Shown in pieces: positions 14,190 through 63,996 of a stretch of DNA of 64,000 nt. Every line of letters begins with the position of its first letter. Within the stretch, counting starts at the first letter, position 1. The stretch covers positions 1-64,000 of the forward strand of contig JAICNG010000002.1 in the NCBI GenBank assembly GCA_025931335.1, read 5' to 3'. The DNA comes from Gemmatimonadaceae bacterium. GTDB lineage: Bacteria > Gemmatimonadota > Gemmatimonadetes > Gemmatimonadales > Gemmatimonadaceae. The translations under genes and the position numbers were made by a program. Below the pieces are notes generated by a model. It was given only the letters and a program-made list of their open reading frames with translations. It searched no databases and was not told where the DNA came from.

Positions 14190-14317
14190 GTGGGACCTCG
14201 TGAGGGTGAGGTCAGGAATCTGTCCCCGCGCATGGGCAACGGCTACCCGGTTCCCCAATGAGCTTACATGCCAACGGCTAGCAGGCGGCCGGGCGCGGCC
14301 AGTAGCTTCCATGCATC

Positions 14318-19389: not shown

Positions 19390-19453
19390 GATTGCGGAGT
19401 GCGGATTGCGGATGCGAGCCGCCGCCGTTGGTGCGCAATCCGCAGCTGCAATC
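19390..19453. repeat. GATTGCGG-word inverted repeat, copy A
   Basis: gattgcggagtgcggattgcggatgcgag...gtgcgcaatccgcagctgcaatc. Confidence 0.7.
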
Positions 19454-19485
19454 TTCCCTCCCTCCCGTAATGCTCTCCCCGCCTC

Positions 19486-20559: not shown

Positions 20560-20662
20560 GATTGCGGAGTGCGGATTGCGAGTTGCGGTTGCGTACCTCC
20601 AACCGCATCGCGGCCCGACCGAAGGCCTCCTGCAATCCGGACTCCGCAATCCACAATCCGGA
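20560..20662. repeat. GATTGCGG-word inverted repeat, copy B
   Basis: gattgcggagtgcggattgcgagttgcgg...tgcaatccggactccgcaatccacaatccgg. Confidence 0.75.
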
Positions 20663-20670
20663 GACCCTCA

Positions 20671-21039
20671 GTGGCCCGAACGCAGCTCACCGGCGCCGGC
20701 ACCCAGCTGATCCACACGCTGGAGGAGGCCGCCACGTACCTGCAGCGGCTGCACGGCATCGTCGAGAAAATGGCGATGGCGCACAGGCTTCAGCAGCCCA
20801 CCGGCCCGTTCGCACAGCAGCTGCGCCGGGCGGCGACTCCGCTCGTGGGGATGCTGAAGGTTCAGTACTCCTTTCTGGCCGACCAGGTATCGGGGCTGAT
20901 CCTCATCGCCACGCGCGGCGGGAACGAGCAACGCAAGGTTTCCGCGCTCCGTGAAGGCGTGGCGCAGCTGCGCGCGCAGCTCGAGGTCGCGACCAACAAG
21001 GTCTACGAGCAACACGCAGTCGAGAGCAACGAGGACTGA
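20671..21039 (+). CDS. Hypothetical protein
   Basis: GTG start after repeat B; coherent helical protein (GTQLIHTLEEAATYLQRLHGIVEKMAMAHRL). Confidence 0.6.
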   Translation: MARTQLTGAGTQLIHTLEEAATYLQRLHGIVEKMAMAHRLQQPTGPFAQQLRRAATPLVGMLKVQYSFLADQVSGLILIATRGGNEQRKVSALREGVAQLRAQLEVATNKVYEQHAVESNED

Positions 21040-21070
21040 GGAGCGAGCGCACCCCGCTCGCTCCTCAGTC
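21034..21070. terminator. Bidirectional hairpin between convergent genes
   Basis: Perfect 16-bp inverted repeat GACTGAGGAGCGAGCG (21034-21049)/CGCTCGCTCCTCAGTC (21055-21070), 5-nt loop. Confidence 0.75.
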
Positions 21071-21075
21071 CTCAG

Positions 21076-25359: not shown

Positions 25360-25463
25360 AAGAACCCGGGATCAGGGGATCGCGGGGTCGAGGGATCGAG
25401 GGCGCACCACAGGTCACCGCGCCCTGATCCCCTGACCCCGCGATCCCCTGATCCCGGGTTCTT
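25360..25463. repeat. Long inverted repeat with perfect 30-bp outer arms
   Basis: AAGAACCCGGGATCAGGGGATCGCGGGGTC (25360-25389) is exactly complementary to 25434-25463; imperfect inner arms follow. Confidence 0.95.
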
Positions 25464-26114: not shown

Positions 26115-28211
26115 GTGTTCCTTTCGGCGTCGAGGCCACGCACTGAAGCGGTCACGGTTCCCACCGATCCCCTTGCCGAAGGCGGACGCGTGTATAGGGA
26201 AATCTTTGTGCCCGTCGACAACTCTCAGCACTCCGACTGGGCCGTGGAGCGCGCGATCGAGCTCTGTCAGCAATCCGGCGGGCGGATCACCGGGAATCAC
26301 GTGTACGCGGCGCGACTCCACGACATCCGCTTCCGCCAGCTCGAGACCGGCCTCCCGGCGCAGTTCCAGACGCCCGAGGAGATCAAGCGCCAGCGCAAGG
26401 TTCACGACAAGCTCATCGAGAAGGGGCTCCAGCTCATAGCTGACAGCTTTCTCGACCAGCTCGGAAAGCGCTGCGAGGCGGCAAACGTGCCGCTCACCCG
26501 CCAACTCCTCGAAGGCATCAACTACGAGGAGATCGTCAATGAAGTGAATCGCGGGGAAGGCCGACTGCCCGGCCTCATCGGCTTCGACCCCAATCGCGCG
26601 GCGAGCTACGACGGCGGCGAGAGTGGGCGCGGCGACGTGCGGCTTGGCGCCGATGGTCGCATCGTCGCCGAGGAGGAGGACCCGGCCGCGAAGATCGTCG
26701 GCACCTCCGGCCGCCGATACGATCTCGTCGCGCTTGGTGCGCACGGGCTCGGGCGACAACAGCTGAGCCAGCTGGGCGGCGTCGTCGCGCGGAGCCTCCG
26801 CGGCATTGAGAAGGACATGCTGATCGTGCGCGATGACACGCCCTTGGCCGGGGGGCGATTCCTCGTCTGCATCGACGGCTCGTCGTACAGTTACCGCGCC
26901 ATGCGCATGGCGCTCGAGCTGGCGCAATCGTTCGGCGGGTCGTTGTACGTGTGCAGCGCCTTCGACGTCGAGTATCACCACGTCGTCTTCAACAACATCA
27001 AGGACGTTCTCTCCGTGCAGGCGTCGAAGGTGTTCAAGTTCGAAGAGCAGGAAGAGCTGCACAACAACATCATCGACAAGGGCCTGCTCAAGCTCTGTCA
27101 GGCGAATCTCAAGCGCGCGCAGGTGATGGCGCAGGAATTCCCCGACGTTCCGATCACGACGCAGATCCTCGTCGGCAAGCCGTTCCAGGTAGTCATGCAG
27201 TGGGCTGACGAAGTGCATCCGTCGCTCCTCGTGCTCGCGCGCCACGGCGCGCATCGCATCGAGGGCACCGAGGTGGGCTCGCAGGCGGACAACCTCCTGC
27301 GACTTGCGCCGTGCAACGTGCTGCTTATCGGCACCGTCGGGGTGCGCCCGGAAGACATCCCCTGGATCGAGGAAGACGGCGTTGCTTCGCTCCCATGGGC
27401 GCCGGAGGCCGAAGTACGCATCCTGCGCGTGCCGCCGTTCGCGCAGGGAATCGCCCGCAAGGCGGTGGAAGAGTTCGTGCTCGAGCACGGCGGCGACATT
27501 GTCACGAACCGGCTCCTCGATGAAGCGATCCGCAAGCTGCTCCCGACCCACATGCAGCTCATCATGGGCATCGGGAGCGCGGAGGAGATCGCGCTCGCCG
27601 AATTGAAGGCCGACGAGCAGATGAAGCGGACGAAGGTCGAAGGACACGACGAGGACCCAGAGCCCGCCGAAGCCCTCGTCGAGGTCAAGTGCCCGGTTAC
27701 AGGTCGGGTCGGCACGCGCGCGCGCGTCGCCACCGACCCGATCGTGTGGACGCACGAAGCGTGGACGCGGCTGCAGCTCGTGCCGTTGATCGCGCGCCCG
27801 CTGGCGCGCAACACGGTGGAGCGGTTCGCGCGCGGCCACGACATCTGGCGCGTCACGACGCGCGTCATGGATGAGAACAAGCAGGCGATGATCGAGGCCG
27901 ACGAGTTCGACGTCGACACGATGATGGTGATGTTCACGGAGCTGCGTGCGCGACAGATTCGCGCCGAGGCCGAGGGCGGCGACGCGCTATCCCCGGAGAT
28001 GCGTCGGTTCATCGAAGAGGCAAAGGCGTCCGGCGTCACCCGCTGCCCGATCCGGGACATCGAAGAGAACATGGCGAAGTGTCCCGTCGATTTCCAAACG
28101 GCGACACCCGCGCAAGCCAAGGCGGCTGTCGAGCAGTTGATGGCAGGCGCGGACGCCGTGTCCGACGTGTCTCCTTCCTCACTCCTCGTTCCTCGTTCGG
28201 ACATGGGGTAG
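26115..28211 (+). CDS. Universal stress protein (two USP-like domains) with two C-terminal PCP_red-like segments
   Basis: REIFVPVDNSQHSDWAVERAIEL; FLVCIDGSSYSYRAMRMALELAQSF; VPPFAQGIARKAVEEFVLEHGGDIVTNRLLDEAI and PLARNTVERFARGHDIWRVTTRVM. GTG at 26190 is an alternative start. Confidence 0.8.
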   Translation: MFLSASRPRTEAVTVPTDPLAEGGRVYREIFVPVDNSQHSDWAVERAIELCQQSGGRITGNHVYAARLHDIRFRQLETGLPAQFQTPEEIKRQRKVHDKLIEKGLQLIADSFLDQLGKRCEAANVPLTRQLLEGINYEEIVNEVNRGEGRLPGLIGFDPNRAASYDGGESGRGDVRLGADGRIVAEEEDPAAKIVGTSGRRYDLVALGAHGLGRQQLSQLGGVVARSLRGIEKDMLIVRDDTPLAGGRFLVCIDGSSYSYRAMRMALELAQSFGGSLYVCSAFDVEYHHVVFNNIKDVLSVQASKVFKFEEQEELHNNIIDKGLLKLCQANLKRAQVMAQEFPDVPITTQILVGKPFQVVMQWADEVHPSLLVLARHGAHRIEGTEVGSQADNLLRLAPCNVLLIGTVGVRPEDIPWIEEDGVASLPWAPEAEVRILRVPPFAQGIARKAVEEFVLEHGGDIVTNRLLDEAIRKLLPTHMQLIMGIGSAEEIALAELKADEQMKRTKVEGHDEDPEPAEALVEVKCPVTGRVGTRARVATDPIVWTHEAWTRLQLVPLIARPLARNTVERFARGHDIWRVTTRVMDENKQAMIEADEFDVDTMMVMFTELRARQIRAEAEGGDALSPEMRRFIEEAKASGVTRCPIRDIEENMAKCPVDFQTATPAQAKAAVEQLMAGADAVSDVSPSSLLVPRSDMG

Positions 28212-32857: not shown

Positions 32858-34473
32858 GGCGCTCTAGATTGCGGACTGCTGATTGCGGATTACGAGTAAC
32901 CACGGGTCCCCTGCGTAGCCGGCGGATCGCGATGCTCGTGTGCCTCCTGTTCGCCATCCGCAGTCCGCAATCCGCAATCCTGACCCAGGAGCCCCGCGGC
33001 AAAGCGGCCTACGACAAATGGTGCGCCGGCTGTCACGGCGACACGGGCGCCGGCGACGGCTACGCCCAGGCCTTCATGCTGCCTCGTCCGCGCGATTTCA
33101 CGAAAGGCGTCTACCAGATCCGCACGACCGCGAGCGGAGAGCTTCCGACTGACGCCGATCTGCGCCGCGTGATCGATGAGGGAATGCCCGGCACCGCGAT
33201 GCCGGGATGGCGGGAGCGTCTCACGGATGCGCAGCGTGAAGACGTGATCGCGTACATCAAGAGCTTCTCGCAGTTCTTCACCGGTCCCGCGCCGACCGCC
33301 ATCGAGGTCGGGACGGCGCCTCGAGCGTCCGATGAAGCGATCGCGGAGGGACGGCAGGTCTACGAGAAGCTCGAGTGCTTCAAATGTCACGGACAGGATG
33401 GACGTGGCGACGGAACATCGGCGCCCACCCTCACCGATGATTGGGATCAACCGATCTTCGCCGCCGACCTTCACGGGAGCTGGCGATTCAACGGTGGCAG
33501 CTCGGTCGAGGAGATCTATCGCCGCCTGCGGACAGGGCTCGACGGGACGCCAATGCCGTCGTTCAGCGATGTGATCGACTCCAAGATCATCACCGATGAG
33601 CAACTGTGGCGTGTGGCGCAGTATGTTCGCAGCCTGTCGCCGGAAGAGCCACCGCCCGTGCGCGAGGTCATTCGCGCCCACCTCACGGAGGAGGGCGTCC
33701 CGAGTGGGCCCGCCGATACGACGTGGGCGCGCGCGGAGGCGTACTACATTCCGGTCGTTGGGCAGATCATCGTGAAGCCGAGGTGGTTCTCGCCCGCCGT
33801 CGAGGGAGTGTGGGTTCAGGCGATGCACGATGGCAGCCGTCTCGCGCTGCGCCTGACGTGGACCGACCGCTCGCGCAGTCCCGACCCGGCATGGGATGAG
33901 TGGCTCGGTCGCGTGCGGCAGGCGATGACGGACGTAGACGGGCCGCTCCCGTCGTCCCAGGGACCGGACCTGTTGGGGGTGCAGTTTTCTCCGAGGTCGG
34001 GCGAGGCCGAGCCTCCGTTCTTCCTCGGCGGCAGCACGCGGCGGCCTGCGCACCTGTGGCGGTGGTCGAGCGCGCCCGATGCGGTAACATCAGGCACGGG
34101 CACCGGACTCGGTCAATTCACCGCCGATGCGGGCGCGTCGCAGCTCACGCATGCCGCGCAATTCGTGAACGGTGAGTGGCAGGTGCAGTTCACGCGGGCG
34201 CTCGTTTCCGCCGACACGGCGCGCGCGCCGTCATTCGTCGCTGGGCGCGCGCTCCCGATCGCGTTCTTCGTCGCCGACGGCTCGAATGGAGAGGATTCGG
34301 TTCGCGGAGCAGTCAGCGCGTGGTACGCGGTGTATCTCGACGTCGCCACGCCGACGCGCGTCTACGTCGCACCAGGACTCACGATGTTGCTTACCGCTGG
34401 ACTGGGCCTCATGTTAGTCCGGCAAGCCCAGCGGCGCGAACGAAACAGCGAACGTTCCAACTCGGAGGGTTAA
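32854..34473 (+). CDS. Diheme cytochrome c with ethylbenzene-dehydrogenase-like haem-binding C-terminal domain
   Basis: CAGCH and CFKCH; C-terminal VWVQAMHDGSRLALRLTWTDRSRSPDPAWDEW. TTG 32854 or ATG 32932 start. Confidence 0.8.
   Translation: MRRSRLRTADCGLRVTTGPLRSRRIAMLVCLLFAIRSPQSAILTQEPRGKAAYDKWCAGCHGDTGAGDGYAQAFMLPRPRDFTKGVYQIRTTASGELPTDADLRRVIDEGMPGTAMPGWRERLTDAQREDVIAYIKSFSQFFTGPAPTAIEVGTAPRASDEAIAEGRQVYEKLECFKCHGQDGRGDGTSAPTLTDDWDQPIFAADLHGSWRFNGGSSVEEIYRRLRTGLDGTPMPSFSDVIDSKIITDEQLWRVAQYVRSLSPEEPPPVREVIRAHLTEEGVPSGPADTTWARAEAYYIPVVGQIIVKPRWFSPAVEGVWVQAMHDGSRLALRLTWTDRSRSPDPAWDEWLGRVRQAMTDVDGPLPSSQGPDLLGVQFSPRSGEAEPPFFLGGSTRRPAHLWRWSSAPDAVTSGTGTGLGQFTADAGASQLTHAAQFVNGEWQVQFTRALVSADTARAPSFVAGRALPIAFFVADGSNGEDSVRGAVSAWYAVYLDVATPTRVYVAPGLTMLLTAGLGLMLVRQAQRRERNSERSNSEG
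32867..32980. repeat. GATTGCGG-word inverted repeat, copy C, overlapping a CDS start
   Basis: gattgcggactgctgattgcggattacgagt...catccgcagtccgcaatccgcaatcc. Confidence 0.8.
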
Positions 34474-37740: not shown

Positions 37741-37849
37741 AACCAGGAGTCAGGAGTCAGGGATCGGGGATCAGGGGGTGTCGGGTTGTGGGCTAGGGAA
37801 CGGCCGCCGCATCTCCTGCTACCCCTTCCCTGACTCCTGACTCCTGGTT
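37741..37849. repeat. GTCAGGA-word inverted repeat
   Basis: Perfect 23-bp arms AACCAGGAGTCAGGAGTCAGGGA (37741-37763)/TCCCTGACTCCTGACTCCTGGTT (37827-37849). Confidence 0.9.
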
Positions 37850-47563: not shown

Positions 47564-49468
47564 ATGGCAACGACCGTCGCGCCCCCGCCGGCCGTCGCCG
47601 TACCTGCAAGCAGGTACGAGCGAGGGCTCTGGAGCTGGCTGGCTACGGTGGATCACAAGCGGATCGGGCAGCTCTACCTCTATACCGCCGTGACCTTCTT
47701 TCTCATCGGCGGCCTCGAGGCGCTGATCATCCGCGAGCAGCTGCGCGGACCGAACGGCACACTGGTCTCCGCGGAGACATACAACCAGCTGTTCACGATG
47801 CACGGCACCACCATGATTTTCCTGGTGATCATGCCGCTGAGTGCCGCCTTCTTCAACTATCTCATCCCGCTCCAGATCGGCGCGCGCGACGTCGCGTTCC
47901 CGCGATTGAACGCGTTCAGCTACTGGGTGTTCCTGCTTGGCGCGCTCTTTATGAACGCGAGCTGGCTGTTCGGGGCAGCGCCGGATGGCGGGTGGTTCGG
48001 GTATACCCCGCTGACGACCAAGGCGTATGCGCCCGGAATGAACATCGATTTCTGGGTGCTTGGCCTTCAGATCCTCGGCATCTCGTCGCTCGCGTCGGGG
48101 TTCAACTTCCTCACGACGATCATCAACCTGCGCGCGCCCGGCATGCATCTCATGCGCATGCCGATCTTCACGTGGATGTCGTTCGTTACGCAGTTCCTGA
48201 TCATCCTCGCGTTCCCGATCATCACGGTCGCGCTGACCTTCCTGCAGCTCGACCGCTTCTTCGGCACGAATTTCTACACCACCGCCGCCGGCGGCGACCC
48301 GCTCCTCTGGCAGCATCTGTTCTGGCTCTTCGGGCATCCAGAGGTCTACATCCTGATCCTTCCGGCCTTCGGTCTCGTCTCCGAGGTGTTGCCAACCTTC
48401 ACGCGGAAGCCGCTCTTCGGCTACCCGGTGATGGTGTATTCCGGCGTGCTGATCGGGTTCCTCGGCTTCGGCGTGTGGGCGCATCACATGTTCGCCGTCG
48501 GTATGGGACCGATCGCCGACTCGGCCTTCGGCGTCACGACGATGCTCATCGCGATCCCGACTGGCGTGAAGATCTTCAACTGGCTGGCGACGCTGCACGG
48601 GGGCTCCATCCGCTTCACGACGTCAGCGATGTTCGCCATCGGGTTCATCGCCCTGTTCACGATCGGCGGGGTCTCGGGAGTCATGCACTCTTCCCCTCCC
48701 GCCGACCTGCAGCAGACGGACACCTACTTCGTGGTGGCGCATTTCCACTACGTGATGTTCGGCGGCTCGATGATGGGGATCTTCGCTGGGGCCTACTACT
48801 ACTTTCCAAAGATCACCGGCCGATTGCTCAGCGAGCGGCTGGGCAAGGTGCACTTCTGGCTCACGTTCATCGGGATGAACCTCACCTTCTTCCCGATGCA
48901 CTTCGCCGGTCTCAACGGAATGCCGCGCCGGGTCTACACATACGCGGCCGGGCAAGGGTGGGACCTCGAGAACATGGTGTCGACGTGGGGCGCCCGCATG
49001 CTCGCCGTCGCCACGCTGGTCTTCGTGTACAACCTGATCCGGAGCCGGAGACAGGGTGAGCGATCCGGCAACGATCCCTGGGGCGCGCCCACGCTGGAGT
49101 GGTCACTCCACTCGCCGCCGCCGGAGTACAACTACGCCGTTATTCCCACGGTCCGCTCACGCTACCCACTGTGGGATCTCAAGGCGGCGCACCGCAGTGC
49201 CCACGAGCCTCACGAGCACGACGGTGACATGCCCACGCTCGCCCCGGAGACGCTGGCGCCCGATACGCCCCCGCCGACCGCTCGTCAGCTCGGAATCACC
49301 ATGCCCACACCGACGCTGAAGCCACTCATTGCCTCGATCGGGCTGACGGCAATCTTCGTCGGCCTCATCTGGAACAAGTCATTGCCGATCATGCTCGGCG
49401 GTACCGCGCTGTTCGTCGTCGCCCTGTACGCCTGGTTGTTGAGTCCCCTGGAGGAGCATGAGGAATGA
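47564..49468 (+). CDS. coxA: Cytochrome c oxidase subunit I
   Basis: WQHLFWLFGHPEVYILILPAFGLVSE, DTYFVVAHFHYVMFGG. Confidence 0.96.
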   Translation: MATTVAPPPAVAVPASRYERGLWSWLATVDHKRIGQLYLYTAVTFFLIGGLEALIIREQLRGPNGTLVSAETYNQLFTMHGTTMIFLVIMPLSAAFFNYLIPLQIGARDVAFPRLNAFSYWVFLLGALFMNASWLFGAAPDGGWFGYTPLTTKAYAPGMNIDFWVLGLQILGISSLASGFNFLTTIINLRAPGMHLMRMPIFTWMSFVTQFLIILAFPIITVALTFLQLDRFFGTNFYTTAAGGDPLLWQHLFWLFGHPEVYILILPAFGLVSEVLPTFTRKPLFGYPVMVYSGVLIGFLGFGVWAHHMFAVGMGPIADSAFGVTTMLIAIPTGVKIFNWLATLHGGSIRFTTSAMFAIGFIALFTIGGVSGVMHSSPPADLQQTDTYFVVAHFHYVMFGGSMMGIFAGAYYYFPKITGRLLSERLGKVHFWLTFIGMNLTFFPMHFAGLNGMPRRVYTYAAGQGWDLENMVSTWGARMLAVATLVFVYNLIRSRRQGERSGNDPWGAPTLEWSLHSPPPEYNYAVIPTVRSRYPLWDLKAAHRSAHEPHEHDGDMPTLAPETLAPDTPPPTARQLGITMPTPTLKPLIASIGLTAIFVGLIWNKSLPIMLGGTALFVVALYAWLLSPLEEHEE

Positions 49469-49555
49469 GGAGTGAGGAGTGAGGCAGTCGATTGGAGTGG
49501 GTTTCCATCCGATCGAATGCCTTACCCCTCCGTCCTCGGTCCTCACTTCGCATTA
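49455..49555. repeat. GAGGAGTGA-word imperfect inverted repeat
   Basis: gaggaatgaggagtgaggagtgaggca...tgccttacccctccgtcctcggtcctcacttcgc, starting in the coxA C-terminus. Confidence 0.6.
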
Positions 49556-51403: not shown

Positions 51404-51541
51404 GGTCAGGAGTCAGGAGTCAGGGGTCAGGGGTGGAAAGGGGCCGCCGCGCTTCGCGCGTGCGGCCCTCATCAGATGAGCGCGGCAGCTTCGCTGCCGC
51501 GCCTTTCCTTCCCTGACCCCTGACCCCTGACCCCTGACCCC
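51404..51541. repeat. Composite structured repeat: GTCAGG-word arms with three-hairpin core (copy 1)
   Basis: Core 51435-51508: GGAAAGG/CCTTTCC outer stem; hairpins 51442-51467, 51468-51480 (CTCATC-A-GATGAG), 51481-51501 (CGCGGCAGC-TTC-GCTGCCGCG). Confidence 0.9.
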
Positions 51542-54441: not shown

Positions 54442-54516
54442 GCGATTGCGGATTGCGGCTTGTGTTTTGGCATATCTTCGGGAAACACGCAGTCCGAAAT
54501 CCGCATTCCGCAATCG
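54442..54516. repeat. GATTGCGG-word inverted repeat, copy D
   Basis: gcgattgcggattgcgg...ccgcattccgcaatcg. Confidence 0.8.
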
Positions 54517-56292: not shown

Positions 56293-56470
56293 GAACAAGA
56301 AGGGGTTCAAGGGGTCGAAGGGATCGAAGGGATCGAGGGGTGGAAAGGCGAACGGCCGCGCTGCGCGCGGCCGTTCGCTCATCTGATGAGCGCGTCTGCC
56401 GCGTAGCGGCGACGCGCCTTTCCATCCCTGTGACCCCCTCGATCCCTTCGATCCCTTGATCCGCGCTTTT
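56293..56470. repeat. Composite structured repeat: GATCGAAGG-word arms with three-hairpin core (copy 2)
   Basis: Core 56342-56423: GGAAAGG/CCTTTCC; hairpins 56349-56377, 56378-56390 (CTCATC-T-GATGAG), 56391-56416. Confidence 0.9.
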
Positions 56471-60798: not shown

Positions 60799-62115
60799 TC
60801 AGCGCGCCGTCACGTAGACGGCGAGGTAGTGCGTGGCCTCGTATTCCTTGGCCGCGGGGTTGGGCACGAGCGCGGCGATGAACCGGCCGCCGCGCGTCGC
60901 CGCGAGGACCACGCCCGGGCCGATGAGCCGCCCCCGGGCCCGGATCCAGCCTCCCCGGCTCTCGACGCCGCCATCCTCGATCGGCAGCGCCTTCCGCGTG
61001 GTGTCGAGCGGCACCGAGATGTCGATGGTCGGGCCCTCTACCCATGGGACGTCGGCGAGCTCGCCGCCACGAGGCACCTCGCCCCGCGGATTGCCGGTCC
61101 GGGGATCGAGCGCGAGCCACTCGGTGGCCTGCGCGAAGTCCTGCGCGGAGTTGGGGGCGCGCCCCGCGATGAGACGCGAGCCGTCGCGTGTCCATCGCAC
61201 CCGCCACCCCGCCCCGACCGGGAAGATGCGATCGGCCCCCGTCTCGACCTCCAGGACGCCCGGGCGCGCGAATCCGAACGCCACTCCCATCCCGCTCGCG
61301 TGAAAGCGGCCCGCGACGACGTCCTCGAGCGGCATGCCCACCCGGTTGGCGAACGCCTCCCACTGCGCCGTCGGCAGCGTGTCCTCGCGCGCGCCCCGGA
61401 GAAAATGCGCGCGACCGAATGCCACCTGACGCCAATCCGGCGACGGCGCGGCATCCCACACGCTGTCGCGGCGCACGTAGCGCAGCGGTCGCTCGGTGGC
61501 GACGAAGAAGCCGTTAGGCACGGGCTCGGCCTCGACCGCCGCCGGGTCGTCCATCACGATGATCGCGTTGCGATCCGGCGACAGCGCCCATCGCGCCACG
61601 GAGAACATCCCCTGCGTCTGCTGGTTGACGCGAATGAGCGCCGCCACCCGAGGCTCGACGGGTGCGGCACTGTCCCGGATGACGACGACCGATCTGGCGC
61701 CGCGCGCGGCGCGAATCGCGTGAGCCGCCGCCTGCGCCAGTGCCGGGTCGGTGCTCGGGAGCGCCAGCACCCGATACATCGTCCGCCCGTTGACCTCCGC
61801 TTGACGCACGTAGGCATCCCAGCCGGCGCGGTCCAGCGAGTCCCGCTTCGCGATGGCGGCAGCGGTATCCGGATACGAGGCCAGCTGCAGGGCGACGACG
61901 GCGCCCGTCACCGGCGCGGGAGCGGCGTCGATCGTATCGGCGGCCACGGAATCGGTGTCCGTGCGTGCCGCATCCCGGTCCCCGCACCCCCCGAGCACGA
62001 GGAGGATGGCGCCCAGGAGGCGGACCCGCGCGAACGAAGTTCCCCCCTCGACCCCTTCGACCCCTTCGATCCCTTCGATCCCTTCGATCCCTTCGACCCC
62101 TTTGCAGTTAGGCAT
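60799..62115 (-). CDS. Lipoprotein with SPOR-like domain and repeat-derived N-terminus
   Basis: LLGAILLVLGGC lipobox; VVALQLASYPDTAAAIAKRDSLDRAGWDAYVRQAEVNGRTMYRVLA (SPOR-like); ATG 62115 upstream of a 9-bp tandem repeat. Confidence 0.75.
   Translation of the reverse strand: MPNCKGVEGIEGIEGIEGVEGVEGGTSFARVRLLGAILLVLGGCGDRDAARTDTDSVAADTIDAAPAPVTGAVVALQLASYPDTAAAIAKRDSLDRAGWDAYVRQAEVNGRTMYRVLALPSTDPALAQAAAHAIRAARGARSVVVIRDSAAPVEPRVAALIRVNQQTQGMFSVARWALSPDRNAIIVMDDPAAVEAEPVPNGFFVATERPLRYVRRDSVWDAAPSPDWRQVAFGRAHFLRGAREDTLPTAQWEAFANRVGMPLEDVVAGRFHASGMGVAFGFARPGVLEVETGADRIFPVGAGWRVRWTRDGSRLIAGRAPNSAQDFAQATEWLALDPRTGNPRGEVPRGGELADVPWVEGPTIDISVPLDTTRKALPIEDGGVESRGGWIRARGRLIGPGVVLAATRGGRFIAALVPNPAAKEYEATHYLAVYVTAR
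62043..62101. repeat. Tandem 9-bp repeat (TTCGATCCC/TTCGACCCC)
   Basis: cctcgacccc ttcgacccc ttcgatccc ttcgatccc ttcgatccc ttcgacccc. Confidence 0.95.
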
Positions 62116-63283
62116 AGACCCCTTCCACCGCACTCTCCGCCTCCGGCATGCGCTCCCGCCGGCTCACCAGCGCCTCTTCCTGTGCGCGCTCCACCTCGAC
62201 CTCGACCTCGGCTTCCACCTCGGCGAGCGTCGCGCGCGAGACGCCATCGTCCGCGAGATGTTCCTCGTAGAGCGCGACGGGATCGCGACGCCCCCACTTG
62301 GCGAACAGCTCGGCGTCGAACGTCTCGCGCGCTTCAGCCTCGTCGTGCGTGGCGTGCCCGCCCATGCGAAACGTCTCCGCGACGAGGAGCGCCGGCCCGT
62401 CCCCGCGACGGCAGCGCTCGACGGCGAGCGCCGCGAGCGCGTACGCGTCGAGCACGTTGTTGCCATCGAACTCGCCTCCCCACATCCCATACGCGCGCGG
62501 CCAATCGGCGAAGCGCGAGGTCTCCGCAGGCAGATGGTGCTGCTCGAGCCGTGTGCCGAGCGCCACCTGATTGTTCTGGATGATGAAGATGGCGGGGGCC
62601 CGGCGCACGGCGGCGAAATTCAGCCCTTCGTGCGCGACACCGGCTTTCGTGCTGCCATCGCCGATCCACGTCATCGCGACCTGGCCGGTGCGCCGGACGG
62701 CGAACGACAGCGCGATGCCGGTGACGATCGGAACCATGTCGCCCACGTGGCTGATCGGCGCGACGATGCCATGCGCGATCGACCCGTAATGCCCATCACG
62801 CCCTCGGCTCGGCCCATCCCCTGTGCCCATGTAGGCGCGAAAGATGTCGGCGACGGGCATGCCCATCTCGGAGCAGGCGCCGGAGTTTCGGATCATCGGG
62901 GCGACGATGTCGGATTGCACATTGCGGATTGCTGATTGCGGGTGGGATTCATCTCCGGACGACGGTGTTACTCGCAATCCGCGATCCGCAGTCCGCAATC
63001 GCCGTAACGCGTGGACCGGCCCCACCGTCGCCGCTTCCTCGCCGGTGCCAAGCCATGCCTTCGAGATCACGCCCTGACGCACCCACCGCTTGAGCGCGAT
63101 GTCGGTGAGTCGCGTGCGCACGAGACCACGGTAGAGGTCGAGATGCTGCTCCTCGGTGAGGCGATCGACGATCGCGGCACGAGCCGGGTCGGCGCGCGGG
63201 CGCTCCCGAAAAGCGTCGACGTCGCGATCGTCGCGCTTCCACGCGACGTACTCGGGAGGATCGAAGGCGGCGTAGCGCTTCAT
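62108..63283 (-). CDS. Thiamine-pyrophosphate-dependent dehydrogenase E1 alpha subunit
   Basis: GTGEEAATVG, TWIGDGSTKAGVAHEGLNFAAVRRAPAIFIIQNNQVALGT TPP-binding region, FRMGGHATHDEAEAR. Confidence 0.92.
   Translation of the reverse strand: MKRYAAFDPPEYVAWKRDDRDVDAFRERPRADPARAAIVDRLTEEQHLDLYRGLVRTRLTDIALKRWVRQGVISKAWLGTGEEAATVGPVHALRRLRTADRGLRVTPSSGDESHPQSAIRNVQSDIVAPMIRNSGACSEMGMPVADIFRAYMGTGDGPSRGRDGHYGSIAHGIVAPISHVGDMVPIVTGIALSFAVRRTGQVAMTWIGDGSTKAGVAHEGLNFAAVRRAPAIFIIQNNQVALGTRLEQHHLPAETSRFADWPRAYGMWGGEFDGNNVLDAYALAALAVERCRRGDGPALLVAETFRMGGHATHDEAEARETFDAELFAKWGRRDPVALYEEHLADDGVSRATLAEVEAEVEVEVERAQEEALVSRRERMPEAESAVEGVYA
62911..63002. repeat. GATTGCGG-word inverted repeat, copy E, inside a CDS
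   Basis: gattgcacattgcggattgctgattgcg...cgcaatccgcgatccgcagtccgcaatcg; 23 of 28 arm positions complementary. Confidence 0.9.
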
Positions 63284-63996
63284 CAGCGGGCGAGGGGCTC
63301 CATCTTCCAGAACGCGATGCCGCCCGCCTGCTGCCCCACCGGCACATCGGCAACGCGGGTCAGCGCGCGCAGATCGTAGACATCGACCTTGCCGGGCGCG
63401 GCGCCGACGGCCTCGTTGCTCACGAACGCATAACGAGAGTCCGGGGAGACGGCGACGCCGTGCGTCACCGTCGTCGAGCTCTTCGTGTTGAGGACGCTCT
63501 GTCCGCTGGTGAGATCGAAGACCTGGACACCGCCGCCCTGCTTGAGCGTCGCGATGAGGAGCCGGCCATCCGGCGTGACGGCGAGGTTGTAGGGGCCACG
63601 TCCGGTCGCGAAGGTGCGGGTGATCTCCCACCGGCCGGCGTCGATCTCGACGATCTGGTCCGCCTTGTTGCAGGCGACGTACACCTTGCTCCCGTCGGCG
63701 GACGGCTGCGCCCACGTCGGTGAGCAGCTCGCCGCCGGCATACTGCGATGAGCCGAATGCTCACCGGCCGTGTAGTGCGTAATCGGTCCTTCCTTCCCCT
63801 TCGCCAGCCCGAATCGCCGCGACACCGTGAACGTCCTCGTGTCGAGCTCGACGACCTGGTCATCCATCATGCACGTCGAATACTGGTGGAGCCCGCTCGG
63901 ATCGACGCGGCTGCCGTGCGGCATCGTGCACGTCTCCGTGCGCGCGACCTCGGTGTGCGTCGGCGTGTAGACCACCGAGACCGACGACGGCACCAT
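63283..63996 (-). CDS. YncE-like beta-propeller protein (probably truncated by window edge)
   Basis: Repeated blade motifs (GSKVYVACNKADQIVEIDAGRWEITRTFATGRGPYNLAVTPDGRLLIATLKQGGGVQVFDL); overlaps the E1 alpha start. Confidence 0.8.
   Translation of the reverse strand: MVPSSVSVVYTPTHTEVARTETCTMPHGSRVDPSGLHQYSTCMMDDQVVELDTRTFTVSRRFGLAKGKEGPITHYTAGEHSAHRSMPAASCSPTWAQPSADGSKVYVACNKADQIVEIDAGRWEITRTFATGRGPYNLAVTPDGRLLIATLKQGGGVQVFDLTSGQSVLNTKSSTTVTHGVAVSPDSRYAFVSNEAVGAAPGKVDVYDLRALTRVADVPVGQQAGGIAFWKMEPLAR

Follow-up and report, generated by a model that had tools for sequence, protein, structure and literature searches.

Tandem repeats of a 7-bp word, dispersed over the chromosome, have been described in Xanthomonas (GGGAATC) and Nostoc (GGGGA(C/T)T). 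According to the available sections of that account, these heptameric repeats cluster on the coding strand, in the 50 bp next to stop codons, and many of them face each other in pairs that could fold into stem-loops (70 such pairs in X. campestris pv. campestris); 7–11% of the Xanthomonas repeats lie at least partly in ORFs, 83% of their sites are common to two species, the word does not change at a shared site, and the repeats are treated as G-quadruplex formers (PMC4692102). Rickettsia palindromic elements (RPE) are palindromes that lie in frame in conserved protein genes and also between genes, and an insert-bearing product was active, as far as the accessible parts of the two reports go (PMC10969869, PMC2229807). 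REP sequences are given, in the portion of the source at hand, as palindromes of 20–40 bp with a GTAG/CGTC tag (PMC3733652). Two further systems bear on the present case, namely the TAACTGA repeats of Beggiatoaceae and cyanobacteria, a genome-wide 7-bp word with a patchy distribution across taxa (PMC4679880), and the mitochondria of Nematomorpha, where inverted repeats lie inside functional coding genes and template switching was proposed to keep the arms alike (PMC6649704).

The window analyzed here is a stretch of 64,000 nt from a Gemmatimonadaceae bacterium (contig JAICNG010000002.1 of assembly GCA_025931335.1, positions 1 to 64,000), and its assembly, G000, is a draft of 189 contigs that is 81% complete. 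On the minus strand, at 62111..63283, it carries an intact gene for the E1 alpha subunit of a 2-oxo acid dehydrogenase (E1_dh), whose reading frame runs uninterrupted from an ATG at 63283 down to a stop codon at 62111 and extends upstream as far as a GTG at 63715; the putative start was placed at the ATG from the homologues and their alignment. The product matched the Pfam family PF00676 (E1_dh; E=1.6e-45) and, both by sequence and by predicted fold, PDB entries 1um9/1umb. An earlier reading of this DNA, made from the sequence only, had reported an inverted repeat in frame within this conserved gene, with the frame staying open, and the sequence is as described there. Matching of the word places the element at 62913-63001, with one arm at 62913..62941 (GATTGCACATTGCGGATTGCTGATTGCGG) and the other at 62973..63001 (CGCAATCCGCGATCCGCAGTCCGCAATCG), each of about 29 bp and made of the tandem 7-mer GATTGCG and close variants; as inverted arms the repeat covers 62902-62932 and 62974-63004, with 77% complementarity over 31 nt. 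The RNA strand of E1 alpha folded more strongly here than 200 of 200 shuffled sequences (z -3.1).

The palindrome encodes a 31-residue linker, RRLRTADRGLRVTPSSGDESHPQSAIRNVQS (62912..63004, minus strand), containing the stretch VTPSSGDESHPQSAIR and lying between the motifs HAL and DIVAPMIRN in an alignment of 40 homologues. The same linker has 4–12 residues in 37 of the 39 aligned homologues, in agreement with the short loop expected for this family, and the exceptions are L009 (28 residues) and L012 (20 residues). Judged from the alignment, the palindrome in E1 alpha is a clear net gain. GC3 was 0.52 in the linker vs 0.85 outside it. The idea that the segment might form a surface loop found support in an AlphaFold2 model built with 40 homologues (mean pLDDT 88), in which the E1 fold is intact and the segment is a low-confidence loop (about 48–50 at residues 101-120); this fits a flexible surface loop, low pLDDT being in itself no proof of disorder. 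The E1 alpha copy would be a tolerated passenger in such a loop, with no part in catalysis.

The homologue L009, the closest to E1 alpha (85% identical), belongs to the genome G001 (4164 bp of L090 are identical), the sole genus-mate compared, whose syntenic DNA is about 80% identical to that of the window. Its 28-residue segment starts at the same codon and is encoded by a palindrome of GAACTGC heptads. The expectation that close homologues would lack the segment was right for most of them and wrong for the nearest; under the refuting condition set in the sequence-only reading, a segment of equal length from unrelated DNA, this would count against a recent insertion. What the different-word segments in close homologues indicate instead is that the site was either occupied before the species split or struck again, and that the word changed. 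With the linker excluded, the two genes gave pN 0.058, pS 0.47 and a dN/dS of 0.08, indicating that both copies are under purifying selection.

A word of seven base pairs has a particular property within genes: three words make 21 bp, so that an array encodes one cyclic heptapeptide per strand in any frame, stop-free arms can be read anywhere, and only the total length and the loop must fit. The word GATTGCG translates to DCGLRIA and RNPQSAI on the two strands and GAACTGC to ELRTANC and AVRSSQF, both being stop-free, and one strand of GGGGTCA contains a TGA. By computation, roughly every second possible heptad is stop-free on both strands, and the words that we saw within genes are stop-free. 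This arithmetic gives a simple reason for the tolerance of heptads and predicts that stop-bearing words are kept out of genes.

The three intergenic copies already reported at 19390, 20560 and 54442 were confirmed, with one more at 32867. They begin 3 bp (19390..19455), 9 bp (20560..20659), 8 bp (54443..54516) and 9 bp (32867..32980) past a stop codon; the orthologous place in G001 has a GAACTGC palindrome for the first, the same word around an unrelated loop for the second and the same word around a different loop for the copy at 54443. When positions 62890-63020 were searched as DNA against the assembly from which the window comes, 56 matches had E <= 0.001 (best non-self match 6e-15), and the exact 14-mer GGATTGCGGATTGC occurs 44 times in that assembly, the reversed-pattern control giving 0. 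At least 40 paired copies of GATTGCG type were recognized in the assembly, a count drawn from the search matches and the stretches around them rather than from a whole-genome tally. Most copies start 0–10 bp past stop codons, and between convergent genes they often abut both stops, the spacer being barely more than the palindrome; about a sixth to a quarter of the paired copies are intragenic, a share that varies with the gene starts and ends called by a simple codon model. The hairpins of the intragenic copies are no different in stability from those of the intergenic ones. Arms of paired copies have the word in common; apart from terminator-like stems in a few, the loops show no relation to each other, and base frequencies immediately inside the arms gave weak signals only. 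A common loop sequence acting as a mobile core was rejected for this lack of relatedness. No Rfam family matched above its gathering score within the window.

Related classes of repeats lie in the same window. Just 3′ of the E1 alpha stop there is a 9-bp tandem repeat, CCCCTTCGA, in 6.7 copies (62043..62102), and the matching place in G001 holds different 9-mers, CCCCAGCGC. The elements at 56304..56462 and 51404..51541 enclose the same REP/BIME-like core, GGAAAGG ... CTCATC(A/T)GATGAG ... CCTTTCC, which forms two hairpins, between arms of the 9-mer GGATCGAAG and of GGGGTCA/GGAGTCA, respectively; at the former the core is common to both species and the G001 arms are of the 7-mer GGGGTCA, so that both word and unit length differ, and roughly 30 copies resembling the latter occur in G001. 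A core-bearing GGGGTCA palindrome present in G001 (L158 16146-16329) is absent at about 14225-14280 of the window, a candidate empty site. Other palindromes or arrays of 7- or 8-bp words were seen at 25360-25463, 37741-37849, 21031-21073, 49453-49487 and 28171-28198, mostly just past stops. Tandem-repeat palindromes of other words were also found near E1 alpha in further Gemmatimonadota MAGs (L017 4298-4403, L018 4297-4411, L019 4270-4398 and L055 1895-1981), and one near E1 alpha in a MAG labeled Blastocatellia (L030 869-1002); from these, the general kind looks widespread.

Besides E1 alpha, at least five conserved genes of the window's genome carry such palindromes in linkers. These host genes, named from their protein sequences, are methionine synthase (MetH; where its first domain joins the second), a NagB/PIG-L fusion, the gene of an ABC exporter (in the linker joining the membrane and ATPase domains), a DUF1800 protein (in a linker) and the transferase subunit of an acyl-CoA carboxylase (ACC; a single arm in a linker). 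TopA, identified starting from G001, is the seventh site of the comparison below; outside these seven, a D-alanine ligase, named in the same way, carries a copy at its C-terminus. Since the ABC, ACC and DUF1800 linkers are variable in relatives, it is safer to say there that the element occupies the site than that it was inserted.

All seven testable intragenic sites are occupied in frame in both the window's genome and G001, and the word differs at six. The G001 word is GAACTGC at the PIG-L, DUF1800 and ACC sites; the ABC exporter has GAGGAAC in G001 vs GATTGCG in the window's genome, and TopA has GAACTGC in G001 vs a short GAGGAAC-like array. The word GATTGCG stands at the MetH site in G001 too, where MetH (L193, C48, about 1760-1900) runs forward and inverted around the palindrome at a contig end, a foldback that is probably an assembly error. 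In a third species, G003, a GGGAATC palindrome lies in frame at the PIG-L site and a CCCCATC-type array in frame in E1 alpha (L012, L093), where it corresponds to the 20-residue segment of L012. The words are genome-specific, with GGATTGCGGATTGC found 44 times in the window's assembly vs 9 in G001, and CGAACTGCGAACTG 0 vs 315.

The same comparison was made at 3′ ends for the 22 elements whose stop codon could be traced to an ortholog, by visual counting on the sequences. G001 has an array, usually a palindrome, right past the orthologous stop at 21 of them, with another word at 17; its words are GATTGCG at 4, GAACTGC-like at 9, GAGGAAC at 6, others at 2 and none at 1. As a control, all gene ends in the syntenic blocks were considered: sizeable spacers were nearly all occupied in both genomes and tightly packed gene ends were empty in both. 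Site sharing at 3′ ends may then be saturation, and after this control we discounted it as strong evidence. The intragenic sites escape the problem because coding sequence is overwhelmingly without such elements.

Taken together, we consider it fairly probable that these are non-autonomous palindromes which spread within genomes, that surface loops tolerate them and that newer words overwrite them where they stand. Hairpin-forming palindromes fill the short spacers past stops and, in addition, linkers and loops of conserved proteins; the intragenic copies keep the frame, have no stop on either strand and lie in structurally permissive places, and for these reasons they would be retained, presumably by selection. 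New words would spread through the genome, replacing older ones at occupied sites, and each replacement would probably be one palindrome copied into another during the replication or repair of hairpin DNA. A stronger form, in which an active process replaces a tandem-repeat palindrome at a fixed site by a copy of another, changing the two arms together, with any word and with frames kept, and so rewrites the spacers and some protein loops of a genome, is a tentative proposal that we would sooner doubt than accept. Against the spread of palindromes and their overwriting it counts that the elements showed no target duplication, that neither a transposase nor any other copying enzyme could be linked to them, and that mosaic arms, as conversion in progress would leave, are rare, with one clear case (the left arm of L205). 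A Y1/RAYT transposase (PF01797) was rejected as the driver, the family having one match in G001 with no core element beside it and none in G003 or in G000 (81% complete). Should overwriting hold, palindromic repeats would be part of many conserved bacterial proteins outside Rickettsia and Wolbachia, in a high-GC phylum, and the swap of words at shared sites, mapped and present in two alternative states in two genomes, opens concerted evolution among dispersed bacterial repeats to direct test.

Each species might instead have been invaded separately, the same hypervariable linkers being struck twice because few tolerated targets exist. The DUF1800 and carboxylase linkers are indeed variable throughout the relatives, in sequence as well as in length, the 3′ spacers look saturated, and on the E1 alpha tree the long linkers count as two changes unless one was lost. 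Against separate invasions stands the coincidence of all seven intragenic sites, including TopA, which was chosen from the relative's side; many surface loops exist, so that very strong hotspots would be required, and visual inspection of the intragenic junctions showed no target motif in common. We regard two rounds of insertion as possible, though rather improbable.

Somewhat less credit is given to host-useful RNA hairpins at mRNA 3′ ends, serving termination or protection from 3′ exonucleases, with words that drift and intragenic copies that are strays or regulatory. This would suit the placement right after stops and between convergent genes, the strong hairpins, the intrinsic-terminator-like stems in several loops and the palindromy preserved though the word changes. 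Drift, however, fails to explain why dozens of loci agree on one exact word within a genome and on a different one within its relative: the genome-wide coherence of the word, with unlike words at shared sites (GATTGCG vs GAGGAAC), makes local drift insufficient. The in-frame copies within seven protein genes also stay unexplained, the arms would be redundant where loops already have terminator-like stems, and the intragenic hairpins are equally stable, yet a terminator there would truncate the message. A useful 3′-end hairpin is an unlikely account of the whole set. Of an intrinsic terminator, a hairpin with a U-run behind it at a transcript end, the elements have the strong hairpin, and no U-run is seen after most arms.

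Local slippage, with palindrome correction by template switching, could build every array where it lies, so that nothing would pass between loci. The arms are whole numbers of heptads that mirror each other, and variants one step apart occur (GGATTGC, GGACTGC, GAACTGC), but neither one genome-wide word nor swaps of unrelated words (GATTGCG vs GAGGAAC in the ABC exporter; GAGGAAC-like vs GAACTGC in TopA) would follow, and we consider slippage very improbable. That the E1 alpha copy reflects misassembly or a dying gene, an objection foreseen in the sequence-only reading and for which one could cite the fragmented assembly and the MetH foldback, is scarcely credible, since the gene is open and under purifying selection and since, in a second species assembled independently, a palindrome lies in frame at this very codon.

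Having set these alternatives beside the spread and overwriting of non-autonomous palindromes, we return to the known systems. The TAACTGA repeats differ in being direct, mostly upstream of start codons and almost never inverted (PMC4679880), and their word has a stop on one strand, unlike the words within genes here. The coding palindromes of Nematomorpha have no dispersed word, and their arms encode the protein's own conserved residues. To REP/BIME sequences the likeness is that of extragenic palindromes after genes, and in the window some arms enclose a loop with a REP/BIME-like core; the GATTGCG elements, however, have heptad arms in place of a tagged palindrome of 20–40 bp, and no Y1 transposase was found in two of the three genomes, one of them 81% complete. 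A MITE would have the conserved terminal inverted repeats of a parent transposon and a target duplication; the interior of the elements here is not conserved, no empty site came to light for a GATTGCG copy, and the single clean one-sided insertion was that of a REP/BIME-core element. The tRNA-Leu intron of Nostoc has heptanucleotide stems of two word classes and would be an earlier example of a word that switches at a single site. The Xanthomonas heptameric repeats come nearest in their type of sequence and in where they lie. The palindromes here share with them and with the Nostoc repeats a tandem 7-bp word at many dispersed sites, and the exact Xanthomonas word GGGAATC stands at the G003 PIG-L site; GATTGCG and GAACTGC are without the GGG run of a G-quadruplex former, and the available part of the heptamer account describes neither in-frame inserts in conserved proteins nor word replacement (PMC4692102). 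Nor is word replacement at shared sites described for RPE or Xanthomonas heptads in the open-access portions of the literature searched. The resemblance to RPE put forward from the sequence holds as an analogy of function, since the palindromes here lie in frame in conserved protein-coding genes; it had overlooked the tandem 7-bp unit, and the whole set of sites matters more than the one copy in E1 alpha. As described, RPE are set apart by a length of 105–150 bp, a conserved peptide and a fixed family consensus, as against heptad arms, unrelated loops and a word that varies with the species, and their host lineage is unrelated to Gemmatimonadota. The palindromes of this genome may fairly be called, by analogy and with no claim of membership, a functional analogue of RPE.
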